Positions 1,275-60,133 of a stretch of DNA of 60,133 nt are shown piece after piece. The notes below the pieces were generated by a model. It did no database searches. It was not told where the DNA came from and worked only from the letters and a program-made list of their open reading frames with translations. The stretch is from Verrucomicrobiia bacterium (GTDB lineage Bacteria; Verrucomicrobiota; Verrucomicrobiia; Limisphaerales; UBA11358). The first letter of the stretch is position 1; the number at the start of each line of letters is the position of its first letter. The translations under genes were made by a program, and so were the position numbers. The DNA lies in contig JANWKE010000011.1 in NCBI GenBank assembly GCA_025451535.1, positions 1-60,133 on the forward strand, read 5' to 3'.

Positions 1275-4200
1275 ATGAGAAGCTTCAACGATTTCCAAAC
1301 CGCGCAGCGGTGTCGCGAACTGGAAAGGGCTTGCGCCGGCGCGGCAACGTCCTGGACTGCGGCAGCCCTCTGCCGCTTTCGATTTCACCGCCACCCCAAA
1401 AGCGCCAGAGGACTGGCGCACTCCAAAACCTGGCGGCAGGTCGGATGGTTCAGGGAAAATATTTTTGCCCGGCTTCAGCACGGGTTGATCGGCATGGGTA
1501 TTTTCCTGCTGGTTTGCGGTGGCAGTATCGATCGCCTCCACGCCAATCCGGTGGGTGGCACGGTGACCCAAGGTGCAGCCACCTTCAATACCTCCGGTTC
1601 GCAATTCAGCATCAATCAAACGTCCCCCAATGCCTTCATCAACTGGACGGGTTTCAACATCGCTCCCGGCGAAACCACGAGCTTCAACCAGCCTTCGTCG
1701 TCTTCGGTGACCTGGAATTATATCAACGACCCCAATGTCTCGAGTATCAACGGGAATCTCAACGCCGATGGCTACGTGATTTTGCAAAACCCCAACGGCA
1801 TCAGTGTGGGTGGCCAGGCTTCCATCACGGCCCATGGCCTGGTCATGACCACGGCTTCCACGCCAGCGCTCAATCTTTCCAGCAGTGGCCCGTGGTCTTT
1901 TAATGCGCCGCCGCCTGCCGCCAAAATCATCAACTACGGCCAGATTAATATTGCCGGCGGCGGTTCGGCCTTTCTCATTGCCAATGACATTGAAAACCAC
2001 GGCACAATTTCAGCGCCGGGAGGCAATATCGGCCTTTACGCCGGTCAAACGGTCCTGGTTTCCACGTCGCCCGACGGTCGCGGATTGAGCGCACAAGTTA
2101 CCTTGCCTCAAGGTTCAGTGGATAATAAAGGCAATTTGACTGCCGATGGCGGCAGCATTGTCGCCCAGGCCCAACTCGTTAATCAAAATGGATTGGTCCA
2201 GGCCAATTCCGCCCAGGACGTCAACGGCACGATCGAGCTGGTAGCGGGTGACACGGTCAATCTGAACGCGAATTCCGTCATCTCGGCGGAGGGAAGCAGT
2301 CAAGTCGCCAGCGCGGGTGGCGTCACCGTACAGGCAGGAAACTCCGTTAATAACAATGGCCAGGTGGTCGCCGATGCCAGCTCAATTCTGATGGAAGCGC
2401 CGGCCGTGAATCAAAACGGAACCCTTCAGGCGAATTCCCTTGTGAATCCCCTCGGGAGCGTCAAGGGCAGCATTGAACTGGCCGCGAGTAGTGCCGTCAA
2501 TCTCGGTGCCAATTCCACCATCTCAGCCAACGGCGATTCGACGGCGGCCGTAACCACGCCCAGTTCCGGCGGCTCGGTGACAATCCAATCAGCCAACAGC
2601 TTTTCCGACCAATCCGGCTCAAGCATCAGTGTCTCGGGCGCGTCACAGGGCGGCAACGGGGGTCAGGTGGCCATTTCGGCACCGCAGATGACGGCCTTCA
2701 ACTCGAGCATCAGTGGTCAAGCCAGCGCGGGATACGCGAACGCCAGTCTTTCCATTGACACAGCGGACATCTCGCTGAATGCCGACGGCAGCCCCGTGGC
2801 GGGCGCGCTTGCGCTCAACGTGAATTCCTTGTCCTCAGGGTTGTCACAAATCAACCTGCAAGCTGCCAACCGTATCGAATTGAGTTCACAATGGATGCTC
2901 GGCAATCCTGCCACCGTGTCGTTGCTGGCTGGCAACACCATCACGGTGGACCTCGGCGCAAAAATTGAGGCGGGTGCCGGAAAAATTGCACTGAACGCAC
3001 CAACGGTAAATCAGTACGGAACTCTCCAGGCCGATTCCATCGGGAACGTCAACGGGGTCGTTGAACTTGACGCAGGTGCGAGCCTGAATTTAGGCGCCAG
3101 TTCCGTCATTTCTGCCAACGGCGATGCGACCGCCACCAGCGCCAGTCCCGGAGGATTTGTAGTTTTAAACGCAGGCATTAATGCATTCAACGACATGTCT
3201 GGTTCAGCGATTTCAGTTTCGGGCACCGCGGGAGGGAAAAACGGCATCATTGAAATCTTTGGCAATGGAGTGACCGCCGGCTCAGTTCAATCGACGATTG
3301 GCAGCTATCTCGCGTATTTAATCAATCCCGGTGACGTTTATCTCTCCTCCAGCTCTACCACCCAGAACACGCAACCTGCTAATACCGATCCTAACACCTC
3401 GAACCCCCAACCGTGGGCCAACTTCGGTGTGAGCGATTTGTCCGCTTTCTCACAGATTGATTTGCAGGCACTGGACAATATTACTCTGAATTCAGCATGG
3501 ACTCTTGGCCCTCAGACCGTTCCGGCCGTCCCCACCGCCATTAGCACCCTTAACTTGTCTGCGGGCAACAACATTACCCTGAACAGCTCTTTTGGTGCCG
3601 GGTACAATTGGAATGTCAACCTGACCGCTGGGACAGCCTTTGTTCCCACGTCAGGCCAGCCAACGCCGAATCCCGGAAATGACGGAATCTATGTGAACAA
3701 CAGTCTTCAAGCCCTGAACCGCGACATCATTCTCGACGCGGCCAACGAAGTCATTGTTGGCAGTGGCGCCATCCGCACTATCAGCGGCGGTAACATTGAC
3801 TTGACGGCACAATATGGAAGCGTCAATACCGGAACGAGCGCTAATGGGTTTAATTACAAAACATCGGCACCGTATTATACTCCCGCCTCGTCTCTCGGCG
3901 GCATCAGCACGGCAGCGGGTGGAAACGTCACCCTCAATGCCGGTGGCGACGTCATCAGCTTTCCCACCACCACGGTGGCGGCGGGCGATCCCGGAACGGG
4001 AGCTTTTGGACCAGAAGCAGGAAACGTAACGATCAACGCCGTGGGCAATGTCTATGGAAACTACGTGGTGATGAACGGCACGGGCACCATCAATGCCGGC
4101 CAAAACATCGGCGCGATCCCTTCTTCCCAGAATCCAATGTTTGACAACGTGGCGTTGAGCCTGGCCAAAGGCAGTTGGAACCTGAATGCGCAGGACAATA

Positions 4201-7235: not shown

Positions 7236-8195
7236 ATGAAAAAAAACGTTGGAATTCTTTGCAGTTTTGCGGTCAGCCTGGGTCTGACTGGCCTTTTAGT
7301 TCTGGGAACATCCGGACAGGCGTCTGAAGAATTTACTTTGGCTTCAGCCCGCGAGGCAGCCGCCAAAGGCGATCCCAGGGCGGAATATTATCTTGCGCGA
7401 CAATACGATGCGGGGCAGGACGTTCCTCAAGATTATGCCAAAGCGGCGGAATACTTCCGCAAATCTGCCGGGCAAGGATACGCCCCTGCCCAGACTGCTC
7501 TCGGTTCTTGCTACGCGCACGGCCTGGGTGTTCCGCAGGACTATTCGGAAGCACTCAAATGGTATCGTCAAGCAGCCGCCCACGGGGATTCGCTGGCTCA
7601 ATACTGCCTGGGTTATGCCTACGCTTATGGCAAAGGCGTACCAACGAACTTTGATGCCGCTTTCCTATGGTGGCAAAAATCCGCCGAGCAGGGCCAGGTC
7701 TATGCGCAAAATGCGCTGGGCCAGTTTTATCTCCATGGCGAATCTCCCGGCGACACCAATCACATCAATTACCCCGAAGCCACTAAGTGGCTTCGCCGGG
7801 CCGCAGAACAGGATTATACGCCAGCCATGAGCACCTTGGGATCTATCTATCAATATGGCATCGGGACGGGCCACGATTGGACACAGGCTCTCCAATGGAA
7901 CCGCCGGGCGGCGGAAAAAGGAGATGCCGCCGCCCAGGACAACCTGGGCCAGATGTATGAGAATGGGAACGCGGGGCTTCCGCATGACCTGGTGCAGGCT
8001 TACAAATGGTTTTGGCTGAGCGAACAGCAGAGAGACCCGGGAGGACGGCATGATGCCATGGAAATTGAGTTAAGTCACGCGCTTACGCCCGAACAAATTG
8101 CCGAAGCAAAACGAATGGCGGCCAAATTTCAGGCCCATATGCATACGGGCAGCCTTTCTTCTACCAAGGAAGCTCCAACCAAAAGCAGCGACTGA
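7236..8195 (+). CDS. Secreted Sel1-like repeat (SLR) protein
   Basis: 319 residues starting with a signal peptide (basic MKKN, hydrophobic core, cleavage near GQASEE). The rest is a run of about six Sel1-type helical repeats (pattern AxxxLGxxYxxGxGVPxDYxxAxxWYxxAAxxG), so it should form a solenoid used for protein-protein contacts, probably in the periplasm. The last repeat diverges (AYKWFWLSEQQ) and is followed by a helical, charged tail. There is no catalytic motif. It is separated from arsC by 69 bases and stands alone; downstream is a non-coding region. Function beyond scaffold is unknown. Confidence 0.8.
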   Translation: MKKNVGILCSFAVSLGLTGLLVLGTSGQASEEFTLASAREAAAKGDPRAEYYLARQYDAGQDVPQDYAKAAEYFRKSAGQGYAPAQTALGSCYAHGLGVPQDYSEALKWYRQAAAHGDSLAQYCLGYAYAYGKGVPTNFDAAFLWWQKSAEQGQVYAQNALGQFYLHGESPGDTNHINYPEATKWLRRAAEQDYTPAMSTLGSIYQYGIGTGHDWTQALQWNRRAAEKGDAAAQDNLGQMYENGNAGLPHDLVQAYKWFWLSEQQRDPGGRHDAMEIELSHALTPEQIAEAKRMAAKFQAHMHTGSLSSTKEAPTKSSD

Positions 8196-17500: not shown

Positions 17501-17577
17501 TGGCGCGTCCGGCAGGACTTGAACCTGCAACCTTCTGATCCGAAGTCAGAAGCTCTATCCAATTGAGCTACGGACGC
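17501..17577 (-). tRNA. tRNA-Arg (anticodon TCG)
   Basis: On the minus strand a full cloverleaf can be folded: acceptor GCGTCCG/CGGACGC, discriminator G, encoded CCA (17501-17503), D arm GCTC...GAGC, anticodon stem CTTCTGA/TCAGAAG with loop CTTCGGA (anticodon TCG, reading CGA) and a T arm with GGTTCAAGTCC. 77 nucleotides including CCA. Confidence 0.95.
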
Positions 17578-21476: not shown

Positions 21477-21803
21477 ATGCAAAATCTGGCCCAACAACGC
21501 TGTTTTAATCATGTGGGACGTGAAGCGGTGGCCCGCTGCCCGGAGTGCGGGCAGTGTTTTTGTCGCGAGTGCATCACCGAACACGACGACCGTGTGGTTT
21601 GCGCCGTCTGTTTGAAAAAACTGACGCAGCAACCCCTTGCCCGGCACATCACGTTCACATGGTTCCTGCGGCTCGTCCAGTGTGCCTTCGGCATTTTGAT
21701 GGCCTGGTTTTTCTTTTTTTTGATCGGCGAAAGTTTGTTGAGGCTGCCGAATTCGTTCCATGAAGGAACGCTCTGGCAGGTTCCCTGGGTGGATAAGGAA
21801 TGA
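21477..21803 (+). CDS. Small B-box-type zinc membrane protein
   Basis: 108 residues. The N-terminal half has a compact Cys/His cluster (CFNHVGREAVARCPECGQCF, CREC, HDDRVVCAVC) that should bind zinc and resembles the start of many B-box-plus-membrane proteins. One clear transmembrane helix follows (LVQCAFGILMAWFFFFLIGE). It is similar in plan to the 20226-20825 protein but has only one helix. It starts 18 bases after the previous gene and is probably in the same transcript. Function unknown. Confidence 0.6.
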   Translation: MQNLAQQRCFNHVGREAVARCPECGQCFCRECITEHDDRVVCAVCLKKLTQQPLARHITFTWFLRLVQCAFGILMAWFFFFLIGESLLRLPNSFHEGTLWQVPWVDKE

Positions 21804-21872
21804 ACATCGAACATTCAGCCTCGAACGTCCTGTGGCGCACGAAGGTTCAGCCGTCGGATGTTGAATGTTTTC
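21802..21872. repeat. Palindromic array of 7-base words in the gap before the DUF4129 gene
   Basis: Left arm words on the plus strand: GAACATC, GAACATT, CAGCCTC, GAACGTC (21802-21829). The right arm (about 21855-21872) reads as similar words on the minus strand (ACATTCA, ACATCCG). The two arms face each other around a 25-base centre. Confidence 0.6.
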
Positions 21873-21883
21873 CGGTTTCCTGA

Positions 21884-23545
21884 ATGAAACAACGGCGACA
21901 ACAAGGCAAAGGCGCCTTCGATCTCATCGAAGAAGCCACCCACCGGTTGCGCACGGCGCCGGTCGCAACGTTGGCGGTTTATTATGTCGGGTCGGTTCCG
22001 TTTGTGCTGGGGTTGCTTTATTTCTGGGCGGACATGAGCCGTAGTCCATTTGCCGGGCAACATCTGGTTGATTCCGCGCTGGGCCTGACAGCGTTATTTT
22101 TCTGGATGAAATTCTGGCAGGTCATCTTTGCCCGCCACCTGCGGGCGCATGTTGCCGCCGAACCCATACCACGCTGGACGGCCCGCCGCTGGGGACGCGT
22201 TTTCCTTGCCCAGGCCTTCGTGCAGCCGACGGGTTTGTTTCTGATCCCCCTCTTACTGATTCCGGTGCTGCCGGCGGCCTGGGTCTATGCCTTTTATCAA
22301 AATGCCACCGCCCTCGACGACGGCGGTCCGGAAGGAGTCTCAAAACTTCTGAAAAAATCCTGGAAACAGGCAACGCTCTGGCCAGGACAAAACCACCTCA
22401 TCCTGGCCATCATGACCGGCTTCGGGTTTTATGTCTTTCTGAACTGGATGGTAACGGGTTTGGTACTGCCGCACTTGATCAAAATGCTGTTTGGCATCGA
22501 ATCGGTCTTTACGCAAAGCACGTTCAGCCTGTTGAATACGACGTTCTTCGCCGGAATGCTCGGTCTGACGTACTTGTGCGTGGACCCGATTTTAAAAACC
22601 GTCTATGTGCTTCGCTGTTTTTACGGTGAATCGTTGGAATCAGGTGAGGATTTGCGGGCAGAACTGAATTCCCTGGCGGCATCGGCACCATCCGTGGCGG
22701 CCGCCGTGGTGCTCTTGCTGGGACTACTGATTTGGACTCCGCCGCTGCGGGCCGCGGACGCGCCAGTGCCCGCGGTTCAACCAGCCAAGGCACCAGTTTC
22801 AACATCGGTCACACCGGCAGATCTGGACCAGGCTATCAACCAAACCATCCACGACAACAAGTACACCTGGCGCATGCCACGGGAAAAAATCGTGGAACCG
22901 GACGCGCAGGAAGGCATGGTGGCGCGGTTTTTCGACAAGGTAGGCTCCCTGCTGCGGCGGTGGGTGCGCGCGGTTGTGAACTGGCTGGAAGAATGGCTCC
23001 GGAAACTTTTCCGGAACCAACGGGTGAGCACCAGTTCCGGAACCTCCGGTTATGGCTGGATTGAATCGCTGTATGTTTTGCTCTACGGGCTCGTCGCCGT
23101 GGCCGTGGCCGCGCTGCTTATCCTGCTTTACCGCGTCTGGCAGAATCGCCCTGCCCGGGTGATGGTCGCCAGCGAACCCATTCAGCCGTTGCCGGACATC
23201 AATGACGAGAATGTGGGCGCTGATCTGCTGCCGGGAGACGATTGGACCAAATTAGGCCGCGAGTTGCTCGATCGCGGCGAACTGCGCCTGGCCCTGCGGG
23301 CGTTTTACCTGGCCAGCCTGGCCTACCTGGCAGCACGCAATTTGATCAGCATTGCGCGTTTCAAATCCAACCATGAATACGAGCGGGAATTGCGCCGGCG
23401 CGGACATTCATTTCCCGATTTACTTTCGGTGTTCGGCGACAACCTCGTGACCTTCGAGTACATCTGGTATGGTCTGCATGAGGTCAACCGTGAGCGGGTG
23501 GAGCAATTTGTGACCAATGTGGAAAGGATGAGGGGCGCTGGATGA
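21884..23545 (+). CDS. DUF4129 domain membrane protein
   Basis: 553 residues. The N-terminal half has four to six hydrophobic segments (for example VYYVGSVPFVLGLLYFWADM, GLFLIPLLLIPVLPAAWVYA), then a periplasmic-type stretch, another helix (YVLLYGLVAVAVAALLILLY) and a C-terminal DUF4129 region (LGRELLDRGELRLALRAFYL ... ARFKSNHEYERELRRRG ... FEYIWYG). DUF4129 is regularly encoded with MoxR and DUF58 genes, as here; in other systems this region resembles a transglutaminase-associated tail, but no transglutaminase triad is present. It overlaps the next gene by 4 bases (ATGA). Confidence 0.8.
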   Translation: MKQRRQQGKGAFDLIEEATHRLRTAPVATLAVYYVGSVPFVLGLLYFWADMSRSPFAGQHLVDSALGLTALFFWMKFWQVIFARHLRAHVAAEPIPRWTARRWGRVFLAQAFVQPTGLFLIPLLLIPVLPAAWVYAFYQNATALDDGGPEGVSKLLKKSWKQATLWPGQNHLILAIMTGFGFYVFLNWMVTGLVLPHLIKMLFGIESVFTQSTFSLLNTTFFAGMLGLTYLCVDPILKTVYVLRCFYGESLESGEDLRAELNSLAASAPSVAAAVVLLLGLLIWTPPLRAADAPVPAVQPAKAPVSTSVTPADLDQAINQTIHDNKYTWRMPREKIVEPDAQEGMVARFFDKVGSLLRRWVRAVVNWLEEWLRKLFRNQRVSTSSGTSGYGWIESLYVLLYGLVAVAVAALLILLYRVWQNRPARVMVASEPIQPLPDINDENVGADLLPGDDWTKLGRELLDRGELRLALRAFYLASLAYLAARNLISIARFKSNHEYERELRRRGHSFPDLLSVFGDNLVTFEYIWYGLHEVNRERVEQFVTNVERMRGAG

Positions 23546-24798: not shown

Positions 24799-25754
24799 AT
24801 ACAGAACGACTCAAGGAAGTCCTCGCCCAGGCCCGTTCCGAGGCCGGCAAGGTAATCATCGGCCAGCACGACGTCATCGAAAAAGCGCTCATCGCCATCT
24901 TTACCGGCAATCATGCCCTCGTCGAAGGCGTACCCGGTGTCGCCAAAACCCTGTTGGTGCGCACGCTCGCCCGCGTGCTCGGCGCCGATTTCGCCCGCAT
25001 CCAGTTCACCCCCGACCTGATGCCCGCCGACATCACCGGCACAAATGTTTTCAACCTGCAACGCAACGAATTCTCGCTCATCAAAGGACCGATCTTTACC
25101 TCGTTTTTGCTGGCCGACGAAATCAACCGTGCGCCGGCCAAGACCCAGTCCGCGCTGTTACAAGGCATGCAGGAACGCGTGGTGACGATTGACCGCGAAA
25201 CGCATCCGTTGCCGCCAAATTTTACCGTCTTCGCCACGCAAAATCCGATTGAATACGAGGGCACCTACCCGCTGCCCGAGGCCCAGAAGGACCGGTTCAT
25301 GCTCAAGATCACAATGAAAACACCGGACCGCGCTGAGGAATTGGTGTTGGCACAGCGTACCATGACCAAAGACGCGCCGGAAACGGTGTTGGCACAAGGC
25401 GCGGTCCAGCCCGTCATCAAGGCCGAAGATCTGGCGGCGTTGCGGGAAAGCATGACTGCCATCGTGATGCGGGAGGAACTGGTCGGTTATCTCGTGGATA
25501 TTATTCGCGCCACCCGGCAGCAGGAAAGCATCCTGGTCGGAGCGGGGCCGCGCGCCACGCAGGCGCTTATCATGGGCGCGCGCGCCCGAGCCGCCCTGTC
25601 CGGCCGTGACTTCGTCACGCCGGACGACATCAAGGAGATGACGCCGCCGGTGCTCGAACACCGTTTGATCCTTCGTCCGGAATTTGAAATCGAAGGCCTG
25701 ACGGTGGCGGAAGTCATCCAGCAAATTCTCCAGCAAATTGCCGTGCCACGATGA
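24795..25754 (+). CDS. MoxR family AAA+ ATPase
   Basis: 319 residues. Walker A is GVPGVAKT (45-52), Walker B LLADE (about 105-109) and sensor 1 FATQNP, followed by IEYEGTYPLPEAQKDRFMLK, the canonical MoxR signature. MoxR ATPases act as chaperone-like remodelling factors on partner proteins carrying VWA or DUF58 domains; the DUF58 protein encoded next (4-base overlap) is the likely client. Cytoplasmic, probably hexameric. The upstream gene also overlaps by 4 bases, so translation of the three proteins is coupled. Confidence 0.9.
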   Translation: MNTERLKEVLAQARSEAGKVIIGQHDVIEKALIAIFTGNHALVEGVPGVAKTLLVRTLARVLGADFARIQFTPDLMPADITGTNVFNLQRNEFSLIKGPIFTSFLLADEINRAPAKTQSALLQGMQERVVTIDRETHPLPPNFTVFATQNPIEYEGTYPLPEAQKDRFMLKITMKTPDRAEELVLAQRTMTKDAPETVLAQGAVQPVIKAEDLAALRESMTAIVMREELVGYLVDIIRATRQQESILVGAGPRATQALIMGARARAALSGRDFVTPDDIKEMTPPVLEHRLILRPEFEIEGLTVAEVIQQILQQIAVPR

Positions 25755-27142
25755 TTGTCCCTCGTTTCCAGCTGTTGTTCTGGGTGGCCGCAGTGGTACT
25801 GCCATTCGCCCTCCTGGCAGCGGTATCGCCGCTGACAACGGGTGTCTCCCTGTTGTGCATCGGCGGACTGATGATGATAACGCTGGCCGATGCCATCATG
25901 GCGCGCAAGAGCCTCACGGGTGTCGGGGTGGAATTGCCTGCCGTCACGCGCATGTCGAAGGATCGTGAGGCCAAATTGGAATTGCGCATCCGCAACGAAC
26001 GGCAGCGGCAAAAGAGCTTGCGGGTCGCCCTGGCCTGGCCGCGGGAAATCCGGACTGCTACCGAATCGCTGGACGCCCGGTTGCCGGCTCAAAGTGAATG
26101 GTCACGGCTGACCTGGCCCTGCACCCCGCTCAAACGCGGCAATTACCGGTTTGATTCGGCCTACGTGGAAGGCAGTTCGCCCTTTGGTTTCTGGGCGGTG
26201 CGCAAAACCGTGCCGGTACGGTCGGAAATCCGCGTTTATCCCAACCTGCTCAACGAGCGGAAGAGTGTCGCGGCGCTGTTCCTGAACCGGGGCGCCTTTG
26301 GCGTGCATGCACAACGACAGGTCGGCAAAGGCCGCGATTTCGAAAAACTCCGCGAATATATCCCCGGCGATGACTATAACGAGATTCATTGGAAGGCAAC
26401 CGCCCGCCGGGGAAAACCCATCACGAAAGTCTTTCAAATTGAGAAGACGCAGGAAGTGTACGTGATTCTGGACGCTACCCGTTTGAGCGCCCGCGCAACC
26501 GGTCGGGGGTCGAGCGCCGAGGGTCGAGCGCCGGACAGTCGGTCTTTAACCCCGACGCTCGACGCGGGACCCTCGACCACGACGCTGGAACGTTTCGTGA
26601 CCGCTGCGCTGGTTCTTGGGTTGGCAGCGGAGCGACAGGGCGATTTGTTCGGTCTGCTGACCTTCACGGACAAGGTGGAAAAGTTTGTGCGCGCCAAAAA
26701 CGGCAAGAACCATTATGGCGCCTGTCGCGACGCGCTTTATACGCTGGAACCGAAAATCACCACGCCGGATTTTGACGAAGTGTGCACATTCAACAGGCTG
26801 CGGCTGCGCCGCCGCGCGCTGCTGGTGTTCCTGACCGCGCTGGATGACCCGGCGCTGGCAGAAAGCTTCGTCCGCAACCTGGATTTGATCCGGCGGCAGC
26901 ACCTGGTGCTGGTGAATATGCTGCAAATGCCGGGCGTGAAACCGCTCTTCACGGACCCCGCCCTGGCCGGGCTGGATGATTTGTATGGGCAGCTCGGCGG
27001 CCACCTGCAGTGGCAGAAAATGCGCGAGTTGCAAAAGGTCCTGCAGCGATGCGGGGTCCAATTTTCATTGCTCAACAACGAACGTTTGAGCGCCGAGCTG
27101 GTGTCGCAATACCTGAACGTGAAACAGAGGCAGTTACTGTGA
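25751..27142 (+). CDS. DUF58 (VWA-like) membrane protein
   Basis: 463 residues. Two N-terminal hydrophobic segments are followed by a beta-rich region and the DUF58 core (GRDFEKLREYIPGDDYNEIHWKATAR split over residues 198-224, with the conserved R-x-Y-x-x-G-D-D and H-W-K). The VWA-like part starts at VYVILDATRLS, where the metal-binding DxSxS motif is not intact (D-A-T-R). About 25 residues at roughly 252-276 are encoded by a palindromic repeat (26505-26578) with a reading frame that stays open; this sits where family members have a short loop, so it looks like an insertion. Expected partner of the MoxR ATPase. Overlaps its neighbours by 4 bases on both sides. Confidence 0.85.
   Translation: MIVPRFQLLFWVAAVVLPFALLAAVSPLTTGVSLLCIGGLMMITLADAIMARKSLTGVGVELPAVTRMSKDREAKLELRIRNERQRQKSLRVALAWPREIRTATESLDARLPAQSEWSRLTWPCTPLKRGNYRFDSAYVEGSSPFGFWAVRKTVPVRSEIRVYPNLLNERKSVAALFLNRGAFGVHAQRQVGKGRDFEKLREYIPGDDYNEIHWKATARRGKPITKVFQIEKTQEVYVILDATRLSARATGRGSSAEGRAPDSRSLTPTLDAGPSTTTLERFVTAALVLGLAAERQGDLFGLLTFTDKVEKFVRAKNGKNHYGACRDALYTLEPKITTPDFDEVCTFNRLRLRRRALLVFLTALDDPALAESFVRNLDLIRRQHLVLVNMLQMPGVKPLFTDPALAGLDDLYGQLGGHLQWQKMRELQKVLQRCGVQFSLLNNERLSAELVSQYLNVKQRQLL
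26505..26578. repeat. Palindromic 7-base-word array inside the DUF58 gene
   Basis: The 14-base unit GGGTCGAGCGCCGA (26507) is followed by GGGTCGAGCGCCGG (26521). After a 20-base centre, words GACGCTC, GACGCGG, GACCCTC run in the inverse sense (about 26553-26578). The array length is compatible with the frame and adds a Ser/Arg/Pro-rich segment to the protein. Confidence 0.75.
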
Positions 27143-38358: not shown

Positions 38359-40122
38359 TCAGCGATTCACAAACAGTTTCCATTGGCCGACGTTCGTCAC
38401 CAGGGTCAACGGCGTGGCCGGGTGGTTTTGCAAAAAATGCTCCACCTCGTCGTTGAAGCCGGCAATCCAGATGCGGTGGTTTTCCGCCAGCAAATGCACC
38501 AGTGCGCTTTCATCCGGCAACAGCAAATCACCCAGCCGTTTCTGATTGCCGGGAAATTCAAACGGCACCTGCGCCAGGTTCATGTCGCCGAAATACGGCC
38601 GGCTCGTCGCGGAAATTGCCGGGTAGGCATAAAAGGGCAGGCCTTCGGGCAGCTGGCCCCAGCAAACGATGACATCACCGGGCCGGCAATTCACCCGCAA
38701 CGTCAGGCCCAGCGGTTTGAGCGTCGAATTACGCTTGAGATTGTTCTGAAACAACGGAATTTCGGCCACCGTTACTACCAGACTTAACAGCACCAGTGCC
38801 ACGGTCAGTGCCGTGCACGCGGACGGCTTCCATTTTCGCGCCAGCCATAAAACGAAAAGGATGATTCCCGCCGCGACCGGCGTCTGCCATTTCATCCATC
38901 CGGGCAGCGGATTGTGGAAAGCATAAACCACGGCCAGCGGAAAAAACGCCGGCAACAGCAATGCACCGCCCAGACAAAACCGCCAGGCCAGCGCCGCAAC
39001 AGGTTTGGCCGCCGGTTCACCGCCGAAAAACCGCCAGGCCAGCATCACCGCCAGGGCCGGGAAAATGGGCAGGATGTAAGGAGGCAATTTGGCCTGGGAA
39101 AACGAGAAAAGGGCAAATGTGAAAATGGTCATCGTGTTGAGCAGAACCCAGCCATCCTTTGATTTCGGATCCAGGCCGCACCAATATGCCCGGCGCCACA
39201 ACCACCCCAGCAACCATGTCCACGGCAGCAGTCCGACGGCGAGAATGCCGAAGAAATAAAACAGGCTGCCCTTACGATCTTTGATGGTGGTGCCGAGCAA
39301 ATGTCCCGCAGCCTGGCCAAGGGTCATGTAATGAAATGACTCCGGCACGCGCCGGAAAACCACCAGGAACCACGGCAACACCAGAATTAAGAACAGCACC
39401 AGTCCAACCACCAGGCCGCTCCACAAAAGCTTTTTCGCCGCGAAACTTTTCCAGCGGTAGATCACCAGCACGGCCAGGGCCGCAAGCGGGATGGCCAGGG
39501 CGATGGGACCCTTTGCCGAAAAGCCCAACGCGATAGCCACCCAACCGGCGAGGTGCCAGCTAAAAAACTCTGACTTCCGATTCCTGACTTCGGAATTCAA
39601 GCTTTGCCAGCTTCGCCAGAAGAAATAAATCGCCCAGGTGTTAAACAGGGTTAGGAACATGTCCGTGGTCAGCATCCGCGCCATGACGAAGTACAGCAGG
39701 CTCGTTTGCAGAATCAACGCGCTCCAGAAGCCGACCCGCCGGCCGCCGACGGAACAGCCGAGCAGCCAGACCGCCCATACGCCACCGCAACCCGCGAGCG
39801 CGAGCGGCAGGCGCGCTGCCCATTCGTTCTGGCCGAACCACTTCATCGAAACGGCCACCAGCCAGTAGGTCATCGGCGGTTTGTCGAGATGCGGGAGATA
39901 CCAGAGGTGCGGCACGACCCAGTCGCCGGTCTCGATCATTTCGCGGGCGATTTCGGAGTAGCGCCCTTCGTCGGGCTCGTTCAACGCGCGGCTGCCGAGC
40001 AGGATGAAAAATGTGAATGCCGTCAACAACAGCAATAGCCATCGTTGGCGTGTTTCGGTCAGAAAAACTTTTTCCACAGGCTCTGGAGATACGAAGTCTC
40101 CGACAAACCGTGCCGCCAGCAA
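38359..40122 (-). CDS. GT39/ArnT-like membrane glycosyltransferase
   Basis: 587 residues from TTG 40122, supported by AAAGG 6 bases upstream and absence of an ATG before the conserved region. The N-terminal motif NEPDEGRYSEIAREM carries the catalytic D-E after the first helix, as in ArnT and protein O-mannosyltransferases; it is followed by HLDKPPMTYWL and about ten membrane spans, then a C-terminal periplasmic domain. It transfers a sugar from a polyprenyl-phosphate donor to a lipid or protein outside the inner membrane; the GT2 gene at 34965 may make the donor. About 11 residues near 174-184 (SLNSEVRNRKSEF) are encoded by a 7-base-word repeat and look like an in-frame insertion. Confidence 0.85.
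   Translation of the reverse strand: MLAARFVGDFVSPEPVEKVFLTETRQRWLLLLLTAFTFFILLGSRALNEPDEGRYSEIAREMIETGDWVVPHLWYLPHLDKPPMTYWLVAVSMKWFGQNEWAARLPLALAGCGGVWAVWLLGCSVGGRRVGFWSALILQTSLLYFVMARMLTTDMFLTLFNTWAIYFFWRSWQSLNSEVRNRKSEFFSWHLAGWVAIALGFSAKGPIALAIPLAALAVLVIYRWKSFAAKKLLWSGLVVGLVLFLILVLPWFLVVFRRVPESFHYMTLGQAAGHLLGTTIKDRKGSLFYFFGILAVGLLPWTWLLGWLWRRAYWCGLDPKSKDGWVLLNTMTIFTFALFSFSQAKLPPYILPIFPALAVMLAWRFFGGEPAAKPVAALAWRFCLGGALLLPAFFPLAVVYAFHNPLPGWMKWQTPVAAGIILFVLWLARKWKPSACTALTVALVLLSLVVTVAEIPLFQNNLKRNSTLKPLGLTLRVNCRPGDVIVCWGQLPEGLPFYAYPAISATSRPYFGDMNLAQVPFEFPGNQKRLGDLLLPDESALVHLLAENHRIWIAGFNDEVEHFLQNHPATPLTLVTNVGQWKLFVNR
39569..39600. repeat. 7-base-word repeat inside the GT39 gene
   Basis: The coding strand reads as words GAATTCC, GAAGTCA, GGAATCG, GAAGTCA, a 14-base period. 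It lies in a cytoplasmic loop between two membrane spans and keeps the frame open. Confidence 0.55.
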
Positions 40123-40141
40123 GAAAAACCTTTACCGGGAA

Positions 40142-40210
40142 CGCCGGCCTCTGGCCGGCGAGCGGAGGTTTCCTTGCGTATGATTAACAACTTGCCGGCT
40201 GGAAGCCGGC
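40142..40210. repeat. Pair of REP-like GC-rich hairpins
   Basis: CGCCGGCC-TCT-GGCCGGCG (40142-40160) and GCCGGCT-GGA-AGCCGGC (40194-40210) are two perfect hairpins with 3-base loops, 33 bases apart, in the gap between the aminotransferase stop and the GT39 start. Flanking GGGAA and CTCCC extend the symmetry. Confidence 0.65.
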
Positions 40211-40229
40211 GCTCCCGGCCACCGAAATT

Positions 40230-41405: not shown

Positions 41406-41413
41406 GTTCGGAA

Positions 41414-41438
41414 ATTCAGAATTCAGAATTCAGAATTC
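41414..41438. repeat. Tandem 7-base repeat ATTCAGA
   Basis: Three full ATTCAGA units and a partial one, in the gap between the Lrp-type regulator stop and the aminotransferase start. Confidence 0.8.
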
Positions 41439-41440
41439 TT

Positions 41441-52963: not shown

Positions 52964-54166
52964 TCAAAGTTTAATTTTTGCCGCCACCTGCGATACGTCC
53001 TTGTCGCCGCGGCCGGAGAGGTTCACGATGATGAGCTTGTCCTCGCCCAGCTTGGGCGCGCGTTTCATGACTTCGGCAATGGCGTGCGCGCTTTCCAGCG
53101 CGGGAATGATGCCTTCCAGCCGCGCCAGTTTCATGAACGCCGCCAGCGCCGCGTCGTCTTTGATGTAAGTGTACTCCACGCGTTTCTGGTCGTGCAACCA
53201 GGCGTGTTCCGGCCCCACCGCGGCGTAGTCCAGCCCGGCACTCACGCTGTGGGTCAGTTGAATCTGGCCGTATTCGTCCTGCAGAATGTAACTGCGCGTG
53301 CCCTGCAACACGCCGAGCGAGCCGCCGTGAAACCGCGCCGCGTGCTGGTTGGGTTTGATGCCCAGGCCGCCCGCCTCCACACCCACCATCTTCACAGATT
53401 GGTCATCCAGGAACGGATAGAACAATCCCATCGAATTGGACCCGCCGCCGACACAGGCGATGAGCAGGTCGGGCAGGCGCTTCTCCTTTTCGAGGATCTG
53501 CCGGCGGGCTTCGTCGCCGATGACGCGCTGGAAATTCCGGACCATTTCCGGATACGGATGCGCGCCATAGACCGTGCCGAGGATGTAATGCGTGGTGCGC
53601 ACGTTGGTGACCCAGTCGCGCATGGCTTCGTTGATGGCTTCTTTGAGCGTTTGTTGCCCGGCCTTCACGGACACCACCTCCGCGCCGAGCATTTTCATGC
53701 GATAGACGTTCAGCTCCTGCCGCTGGCAATCCACCGCACCCATGTAGACCACGCATTTCATGCCAAACATCGCGGCGACGGTAGCGGTGGCGACGCCGTG
53801 CTGGCCCGCGCCGGTTTCGGCGATGATGCGTGTCTTGCCCATGCGTTTGGCGAGCAGGATCTGGCCGATGCAATTGTTGATCTTGTGCGCGCCGGTGTGG
53901 AGCAGGTCCTCGCGCTTGAGATAGATTTTCGGCCCGCCGAGTTCTTTGGTCAGCCGTTCGGCAAAGTAAAGGGGCGTGGGCCGGCCGCAAAATTCTTTCA
54001 GGTAGTACTTGAACTCACGCTTGAACACCGGGTCCTTCTGGGCACGCCGGTATTCGTTCTCCAATTCCTGCAACGGGTGGACCAGCGTTTCCGGCACAAA
54101 GCGCCCGCCATACGGTCCGAAATGGCCCTGGGCGTCGGGTAGATTTTTTGCGGCAACTGAACTCAT
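52964..54166 (-). CDS. trpB: Tryptophan synthase beta chain
   Basis: 400 residues from ATG 54166. Catalyses the last step of tryptophan synthesis (indole plus serine). The PLP lysine is Lys95 in [19 protein letters not shown] binds the cofactor phosphate; [21 protein letters not shown] is diagnostic of TrpB1 proteins that pair with TrpA. No trpA is next to it, but trpF lies 4.2 kb upstream on the same strand. The gene is intact; a partial copy of its 3' end lies beyond hicBA. A repeat array of 8-base words (CGCAAAGA) lies just before its start. Confidence 0.95.
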
Positions 54167-54179
54167 ACCGCAATTCTCA

Positions 54180-54235
54180 CGCAAAGACGCAAAGACGCAA
54201 AGAATTATTTAACCGCAGAGACGCGGAGAATTATT
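54180..54235. repeat. Tandem 8-base words and dispersed repeat between trpB and the ankyrin gene
   Basis: CGCAAAGA occurs two and a half times (54180-54202), followed by AACCGCAGAGACGCGGAGAA (54211-54230), the same family as the repeats at 9226-9254 and 55434-55450. It touches the stop of the ankyrin gene. Confidence 0.7.
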
Positions 54236-58408: not shown

Positions 58409-59029
58409 TCACACCGTCGACTTAGACGCCTTAATGAAGGCGCGCACTTTGGCGTGATCCTTCCTGCCGGGCGAGGATTCGACGCCGCTGGACACGTCCA
58501 CACCGAACGGTCGCACCTGTCGAATGGCGGCAACGACGTTTTCCGGGGTCAAACCGCCCGCGAGAAAAACCGGTTTGCCGGGTTTTTGGGCCTCACTGGC
58601 CAGCGTCCAATTGAATTTTTCACCTGTGCCACCGAATGTATCGGGTGAATATGAGTCCAGCAACCACGCGTCCGTCTGGTATTTCGGCAATTCTTTCAGC
58701 GACCCGGTGTCGCGGATGCGGAAGGCTTTCATGTTCATCAGCCCGAACCGCGTGCAAAATTCCGGCGGCTCGTCTCCGTGAAATTGGAGCAAATTCAGGC
58801 CGCATTCGCCGATGGCGCGCCGAACGAGCTCCTCGGCTGGATTTACGAAGACGCCCACGCGCAGCGTGAATGGCGGCAGCCCACGGGAAATGTCCGCCGC
58901 GGTTTTCGTCGCAACGAACCGGGGGCTCTTCTCATAAAAATTGAACCCCAGCGCGTCTGCGCCCGCCTCGACGGCCGCCTGCGCGTCGGCAAGGTTGGTA
59001 ATGCCGCAAATTTTTACCCGTATACTCAT
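58409..59029 (-). CDS. trpF: Phosphoribosylanthranilate isomerase
   Basis: 206 residues. TIM-barrel enzyme of tryptophan synthesis: VKICGITNLADAQAAVEAGADALGFNF at the N-terminus with catalytic Cys (KICGIT), LLQFHGDEPPEFCTRF, and the C-terminal phosphate-binding GVDVSSGVESSPGRKDHAKV with the catalytic Asp (G-V-D-V). It is near trpB (same strand) but separated from it by pnt and ankyrin genes. Its start codon overlaps the end of a 7-base-word array. Confidence 0.95.
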   Translation of the reverse strand: MSIRVKICGITNLADAQAAVEAGADALGFNFYEKSPRFVATKTAADISRGLPPFTLRVGVFVNPAEELVRRAIGECGLNLLQFHGDEPPEFCTRFGLMNMKAFRIRDTGSLKELPKYQTDAWLLDSYSPDTFGGTGEKFNWTLASEAQKPGKPVFLAGGLTPENVVAAIRQVRPFGVDVSSGVESSPGRKDHAKVRAFIKASKSTV

Positions 59030-59105
59030 TTATGATTTACGATTGATGATTTTTTGTCCGGCGGACCACGGACAAATCATAAATCATAAATCGTAAATCG
59101 TAAAT
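59028..59105. repeat. Palindromic 7-base-word array filling the feoB-trpF gap
   Basis: Left arm words ATTTATG, ATTTACG, ATTGATG (59028-59048). A hairpin TTGTCCG...CGGACAA forms the centre. Right arm words AAATCAT, AAATCAT, AAATCGT, AAATCGT (59074-59101). The arms are inverse to each other. The array includes the trpF start codon and ends at the feoB stop. Confidence 0.8.
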
Positions 59106-60133
59106 TCAATGAACGAAGCGGCTGACCACCTGGTAAACGATAAACGCGCAGAGGTAGGCCAGGCCGGTCATGTAGGCAATCTGGAACAGCGGCCATTTCC
59201 AGCCGCCCGTCTCGCGGCGCACGACCGCCGTCGTGGACAGGCATTGCGCGGCCAGGATGTAATAAATGAGCAGGCTGGCGCAGGTGGCCGTGGTGAACAT
59301 GGGCGTGCCGTCAGATCGCGTAGCGTGCCGCAACGAATCGTAAAGTGACGCACTGTGATGTTCGGCGGCGTCCTGGCCGACACCATAAACGATGGCCAGC
59401 GTGGAAACGATGACCTCGCGCGCGGCAAACGAGCTGATGATACCGATGCCGATCTGCCAGTCGTAACCGAGCGGTTTCAGCACCGGTTCCAGCAAACGGC
59501 CCATCTTGCCGGCAGCGGAATTTTGCAGCGAAAATTGCGCCGACAACCGGTCGGCGTCCGCGTGAAGCTCCGCGGCTTTCTGCCGATCGCCGGCTTTGTC
59601 CAGTTGCGCGGCCTGCGCCGTCAGTGCCACGGCGGCGGGCGGCGGCACGGATTTGGGATAATGCGAGAGCGCCCACAGGGCAAGCGAAACCACCAGGATG
59701 ATGGTACCGGCCTGCTTCACAAAAATTTTCGCGCGGTCGAATGTATGCAACAGCGCCGACCACAGGCTGGGCAGGCGATACGGCGGCAGTTCGATCAGCA
59801 GCGGCCGGCTGCCGCCCGGCAAAATGGTGCGGTTGAACACGACCGCTGCCAGCACCGCCGCCAGCGCGCCGGTCGCGTACGCCGCGGTGAAAATGAGCGC
59901 GGCCTTGAGCGGCGAGTGCGGAAACAGCAGCGCCGTGACCATCGCGTAAACCGGAATGCGCGCCGAGCACGTGAGCAACGGCGTGATGAGGATGGTCACC
60001 AGCCGGTCGCGGGGATTTTCAATGACGCGCGCGGACATGATGGCGGGAATCGCACAAGCATGCGCCGACAGCATCGGCACGAACGCCTTGCCCGGCAGTC
60101 CGAGCCGGCGCATGATTTTGTCCATCACCAGCG
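59106..60133 (-). CDS. feoB: Ferrous iron transporter FeoB, C-terminal part (5' end outside window)
   Basis: 342 residues to the right edge; the frame is open there (LVMDKIMRRLGLPGKAFVPM). It covers the second half of the membrane core: the Gate domain signature SAHACAIPAIMSARVIENPRDRLVTILITPLLTCSARIPVYAMV (in parts) and the last Gate motif near ASSFAAREVIVSTLAIVYG. The GTPase domain would be beyond the edge. FeoB imports Fe(II) across the inner membrane. An insert near residues 195-240 (AVALTAQAAQLDKAGDRQKA) is charged and helical. The gene ends next to a repeat array before trpF. Confidence 0.92.
   Translation of the reverse strand, partial: LVMDKIMRRLGLPGKAFVPMLSAHACAIPAIMSARVIENPRDRLVTILITPLLTCSARIPVYAMVTALLFPHSPLKAALIFTAAYATGALAAVLAAVVFNRTILPGGSRPLLIELPPYRLPSLWSALLHTFDRAKIFVKQAGTIILVVSLALWALSHYPKSVPPPAAVALTAQAAQLDKAGDRQKAAELHADADRLSAQFSLQNSAAGKMGRLLEPVLKPLGYDWQIGIGIISSFAAREVIVSTLAIVYGVGQDAAEHHSASLYDSLRHATRSDGTPMFTTATCASLLIYYILAAQCLSTTAVVRRETGGWKWPLFQIAYMTGLAYLCAFIVYQVVSRFVH

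Follow-up and report, generated by a model that had tools for sequence, protein, structure and literature searches.

The window, i.e. the whole 60,133-nt stretch of Verrucomicrobiia DNA analysed here, contains three intergenic arrays of 7-nt words just where the earlier note on this DNA had placed them, and the gap between the two adjacent genes is in each case filled almost exactly (Table 1). At locus 1, the gap (59030-59105) lies between genes for a Gate/FeoB_C protein and TrpF, with the end of the right arm adjoining the stop codon of the gene at 59106-60128. Locus 2 (gap 21804-21883) separates a 108-aa ORF from the gene for a DUF4129-type protein, itself part of a DUF58 gene cluster; an ftsL/ftsI identity for these neighbours has no Pfam support. 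The gap at locus 3 (41406-41440) is bordered by genes for an AsnC-type regulator and an aminotransferase. Neighbours were assigned with Pfam on our own gene calls, which come from a simple hexamer predictor, and the genomes are draft assemblies.

Two more arrays had been placed in coding sequence. The one proposed at 26505-26578 is indeed a hairpin made of heptamers and lies inside a DUF58 ORF, in a linker that is 13 aa shorter in genome G024, while the one at 39569-39600 is weak, and TRF reports no period-7 array there. Similar to the DUF58 case, CATTCAA is repeated four times at L037 10592-10621, apparently within coding sequence (HAM1/RdgB-like, by eye only). A different short period is found at window positions 54179-54203, where an 8-base array (ACGCAAAG repeated 3.1 times, followed by AACCGCAGAGACGCGGAGA) lies in the gap before the minus-strand ORF at 52964-54184.

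Table 1. Heptamer arrays and other features located in the window.
Feature	Positions	Strand	Remarks
Locus 1, left arm (ATTTATG ATTTACG ATTGATG ATTT)	59028-59052		
Locus 1, centre	59053-59073		own short stem with arm edges, TTTGTCC...GGACAAA
Locus 1, right arm (AAATCAT twice, then AAATCGT twice)	59074-59105		
Locus 2, left flank (direct repeat GAATGAA)	21798-21804		G024 has the empty site, GAATGAAACG
Locus 2, left arm (GAACATC GAACATT CAGCCTC GAACGTC)	21802-21829		
Locus 2, right arm, inverse (GGTTCAGCCGTCGGATGTTGAATGTT plus next bases)	21844-21871		
Locus 2, right flank (direct repeat GAATGAA)	21882-21888		holds start codon of the gene at 21884-23545
Locus 3, single array (AATTCAG, 3.7 copies)	41413-41438		most of the 35-nt gap
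Heptamer/14-mer palindromic array	26507-26586		within DUF58 ORF 25751-27142; length-variable linker
tRNA gene	17504-17577	minus	only Rfam match in the window

Period-7 arrays (score of at least 9) occur in 18 of the 243 gaps of a 372-kb genome sample, compared with 0.6 in shuffles. In the same sample, periods 5, 6, 8, 9, 11, and 13 are each found in 0-3 gaps, i.e. near background, and period 14 tracks period 7 as its multiple. The arrays are mostly intergenic: 27 of the 48 found in 728 kb lie for the most part in intergenic DNA, which makes up only 13% of that sequence (P = 3e-12). All genome statistics refer to sampled sequence, part of which was centred on matches to the word AAATCRT; the 372-kb gap count and the 728-kb array and orientation counts leave out these AAATCRT-centred regions. 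Of 184 arrays, 83 have an inverse-complement arm no more than 150 nt away, compared with 2 in a mirror (reversed) control and 13 in a complement-only control. As such, the arms described in the earlier note as mirror images do exist, and they are really inverse complements. Non-AAATC arrays at loci from other phyla present the same signal, with an inverse arm at 58 of 95 vs 9 (reversed) and 19 (complement-only) in the controls. The loop measures 20-52 nt in 17 of 18 hairpins, and the architecture is one of two inverted ends with a variable spacer. Given the excess of period 7 over shuffles and of inverse arms over controls, the proposed class of period-7, often two-armed, mostly intergenic arrays is genuine. 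In L127 (genome G022), GACTACT, GTTGAAT, and CTCGACC arrays follow one another in a single gap (3351-3581), together with TTCGTGTGTTTCGTG, a possible hotspot.

The earlier note had also claimed a different set of words at each locus, which holds for the three intergenic loci of the window and does not extend genome-wide: three units of AAATCRT, the word of locus 1, have 36 exact matches in this genome (reversed control, 0), and locus 1 has 54 BLAST matches within it. The sampled sequence of the genus contains at least 65 distinct words, among which AAATCRT is the most frequent, and we found no stem shared among words. Nor is the pattern restricted to Verrucomicrobiota. Specifically, the two-armed AAATCRT pattern is present in at least 115 stretches from several phyla, with carriers in Chloroflexi, Bacteroidota (isolates included), Desulfobacterota, Acidobacteria, Planctomycetes, Alphaproteobacteria, and Verrucomicrobia, and only 23% of these hairpins across phyla lie within ORFs of at least 100 aa, compared with 89% of random positions. 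Parabacteroides massiliensis is one of the cultivable carriers. AAATCRT family aside, the genus and other phyla have 6 words in common vs 3.5 expected by chance (P = 0.13), so it is the period and the architecture that recur, while the words are largely lineage-specific. The search covered tens of thousands of genomes, and one word recurring alone is thus not evidence of transfer; with the sharing of other words at chance level, horizontal spread is not shown to be the cause of the cross-phylum AAATCRT hairpins. A phage origin was rejected, with 1 match among 2.9 million viral contigs. At two places, one in this genome and one in a Verrucomicrobia MAG (L017 1390-1610 and L159 at about 1879), an AAATCRT hairpin adjoins a candidate SRP RNA gene recognised by eye.

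Comparing orthologous gaps, as the earlier note had proposed, reveals both presence/absence and changes of word. The locus 2 junction, where the window carries an 80-nt GAACATC hairpin between two GAATGAA copies, is an overlapping or abutting ATGA in G004, G020, G021, and G024, while G011 has an independent hairpin of a different, GTTCAAA-type word—i.e. one junction presents two different insertions alongside empty relatives. One further junction (L104:12067-12166), occupied by an insertion in both G000 and G022, is an overlapping ATGA in G010; together with locus 2, it is the only heptamer junction with clear empty sites. The flanking repeats are 4-8 nt long and include ATGA in every case, so coding constraint alone may select them. 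An ATGA stop precedes 12 of 60 heptamer gaps vs 18 of 224 gaps without a hairpin (P = 0.016), an excess that is supporting evidence only, since some arrays could supply the stop codon themselves. At locus 3, words are exchanged between species, the filler being AATTCAG, GCAATCC, AAATTTG, GAACATC, or CGCAGATTT-type; the gap lengths are graded among orthologs (12, 28, 35, 41, 42, and 54 nt), and several of these gaps contain related AATTC/AATTT words.

Between G000 and G022 (87% flank identity), 10 heptamer junctions are alignable and 6 are replaced, compared with 36 and 5 for other junctions (P = 0.06), and heptamer turnover may be underestimated here because AAATCRT arrays in the two genomes guided the choice of some of these regions. 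Indels in multiples of 7 nt represent 5 of 42 in heptamer gaps vs 5 of 206 elsewhere (P = 0.015). Such unit indels are few at 13% divergence, from which we infer that most of an array seems to be in place from the outset, with decay following.

A different type of palindrome, rich in GC (L124 and L287), presents a similar filled/empty pattern. For example, L124 of G022 carries a 97-nt palindrome at 8024-8120 (GTGGCACGGGCGTCTCGCC...) flanked by ATGAAA repeats, where G000 has an overlapping GTGA, i.e. a similar insertion logic without heptamers. In the window, the gap at 40078-40229 contains GC-rich palindromic segments (GCCGGC...) with several matches in related genomes (73-82% identity), and these probably constitute a second dispersed family of palindromic filler.

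We consider, with about even confidence, that the heptamer elements are DNA-level palindromic insertions at gene junctions that survive where they are harmless and later decay. An element would consist of an unconserved spacer, typically of 20-50 nt, between two inversely oriented arms of degenerate 7-nt words, would mostly measure about 75-125 nt, and would enter a junction as a nearly ready-made unit. Because an element causes little damage between a stop and a start codon, most survivors would be found in that position, and insertion at an overlapping ATGA junction would duplicate the ATGA, leaving both genes intact. The arms would then decay by point mutation with an occasional 7-nt gain or loss, each arm separately. 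Near-neutrality of the elements and insertion as one event are steps that we infer, and the generator may be replication template switching or a transposition system; among transposases Y1_Tnp was searched, and no enzyme or generator for the insertions was found. Loops are unique (n = 18), with no similarity between non-orthologous loci in the sampled sequence, and for two whole elements none of the strong matches in their own genome is a donor with a matching loop, so whole-element copy-paste is not supported; given this absence of donor loops, neither simple copy-paste nor cut-paste fits. The insertion model does not account for the dominance of a single word family in a genome whose spacers are unique.

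A possible, if doubtful, alternative is growth in place, whereby a chance 7-nt duplication expands by polymerase slippage and template switching at a quasi-palindrome makes the inverse arm, with no need for insertion and with words that are local. The 7-nt indels between orthologs and the graded gap lengths of locus 3, several with related words, are consistent with this, as is the over-representation of heptamers among repeats of many bacteria (PMC4692102, citing earlier work). However, the same words recur genome-wide, full hairpins stand where relatives have no gap at all, and unit indels are few for the divergence involved. Arm variants within a locus are also uncorrelated (r = -0.06 and -0.11; n = 18, low power), and arms as mirrored copies of each other were rejected on this basis. 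It is unlikely that the elements are mobile in the manner of REPINs or MITEs, i.e. that a transposase encoded in the genome recognises the arms while the spacer is free to diverge. Inverted ends with a less conserved spacer are the architecture of REPINs (PMC3116915), and dispersal across the genome and presence/absence with direct repeats at gene junctions would also be expected from mobility, but invariant ends are absent, each genome has many unrelated words, and non-orthologous elements have dissimilar loops. In addition, neither the conserved terminal inverted repeats with copied interior of MITEs nor the conserved GTAG- or CGTC-tagged stem of REPs was found. Y1_Tnp, the only transposase family searched, has matches in most genomes, including G000, that do not track the elements, and none in G011 despite its own heptamer insertion; these matches give no clear support to a link with Y1 transposases.

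It is quite improbable that the hairpins function as RNA in the stretches of mRNA between genes, where they would control stability, attenuation, or translation through a conserved structure with free sequence. Co-directional heptamer gaps do fold better than shuffles (median z -2.4 vs 0.0 in coding sequence), as palindromes must, and the arrays abut start codons, as do TAACTGA arrays in the passages of PMC4679880 on Beggiatoaceae. Against this, heptamer gaps have no preferred orientation (co-directional 14/279, convergent 3/57, and divergent 3/57), their sense and antisense folding energies are equal (difference 0.28 ± 0.82), and no compensatory covariation of the arms was found on the transcribed strand (n = 18, low power), so these three tests give no sign of RNA function. 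Similarly, conserved junctions have empty sites, one copy lies within coding sequence, locus 1 has no terminator-like site (GC stem, then T run), and none of the window arrays matches Rfam. Together, the lack of strand difference, orientation preference, and arm correlation, along with the coding copy, makes a DNA-level feature more likely than an RNA regulator, and the elements resemble a little-described type of DNA filler more than they do a regulatory signal.

More broadly, and tentatively, a widespread bacterial process might make palindromic insertions in which the 7-nt period is fixed and the word is free. Whole junction hairpins would then arise independently in many phyla with duplication of the overlapped start/stop codon, perhaps through a template-switching or repeat-copying polymerase activity. 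A fixed period with free words points to a polymerase property or an unknown enzyme, not to a sequence-specific element. If whole hairpins arise in one step at stop/start junctions, they contribute sizeably, and for the most part unnoticed, to intergenic sequence and to changes in operon spacing, and junctions with both filled and empty relatives make this question testable.

To call the class undescribed, as the earlier note tentatively did, is too strong, since heptamer arrays or stems have been reported in Xanthomonas (PMC4692102), Nostoc (PMC4476775), and, in the passages of PMC4679880 on these repeats, marine Beggiatoaceae. In the latter, TAACTGA arrays end just before start codons, as our arrays do; as presented in those passages, they differ by having one word, nearly always in direct repeats with a single orientation, and by the lack of any mention of hairpins or insertion. 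In the trnL intron of Nostoc, both arms of the P6b stem consist of heptamers (TDNGATT or NNTGAGT), and lineages differ by replacement of the entire stem (PMC4476775); TDNGATT covers TACGATT/TATGATT, i.e. the AAATCRT words of locus 1. That stem, however, occupies one place in an intron and is constrained by RNA structure, whereas the present elements lie scattered between protein-coding genes.

REPINs (PMC3116915) and GTAG/CGTC REPs (PMC3733652) also have inverted ends, a variable spacer, an extragenic location, and many copies. REPs, however, have a tagged stem that is conserved and are associated with a tyrosine transposase, whereas our elements have no invariant stem and their arms have period 7; they are REPIN-like in layout and, lacking the conserved tagged stem, are not REPs. 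The GGGAATC/GGGGAYT repeats of Xanthomonas and Nostoc (PMC4692102) are similar in their 7-nt units, intergenic location, degenerate words, and lengths that vary between related species, and some form inverted (convergent) pairs, as reported in Xanthomonas. Those studied are of one G-rich word type per organism and mostly single arrays, while the present elements comprise many different words in one genome, and about half of the arrays have an inverse arm. Our search of the open-access literature found no paper on the literal words, nor any on a multi-word, two-armed, junction-inserted form in Verrucomicrobiota. Tandem 7-nt units are over-represented in intergenic DNA here as in published heptameric repeats, which have one characteristic word per genome, compared with at least 65 words in the sampled genus sequence. 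As such, heptameric intergenic arrays are already known, while their multi-word, two-armed, junction-inserted form appears to be poorly described.
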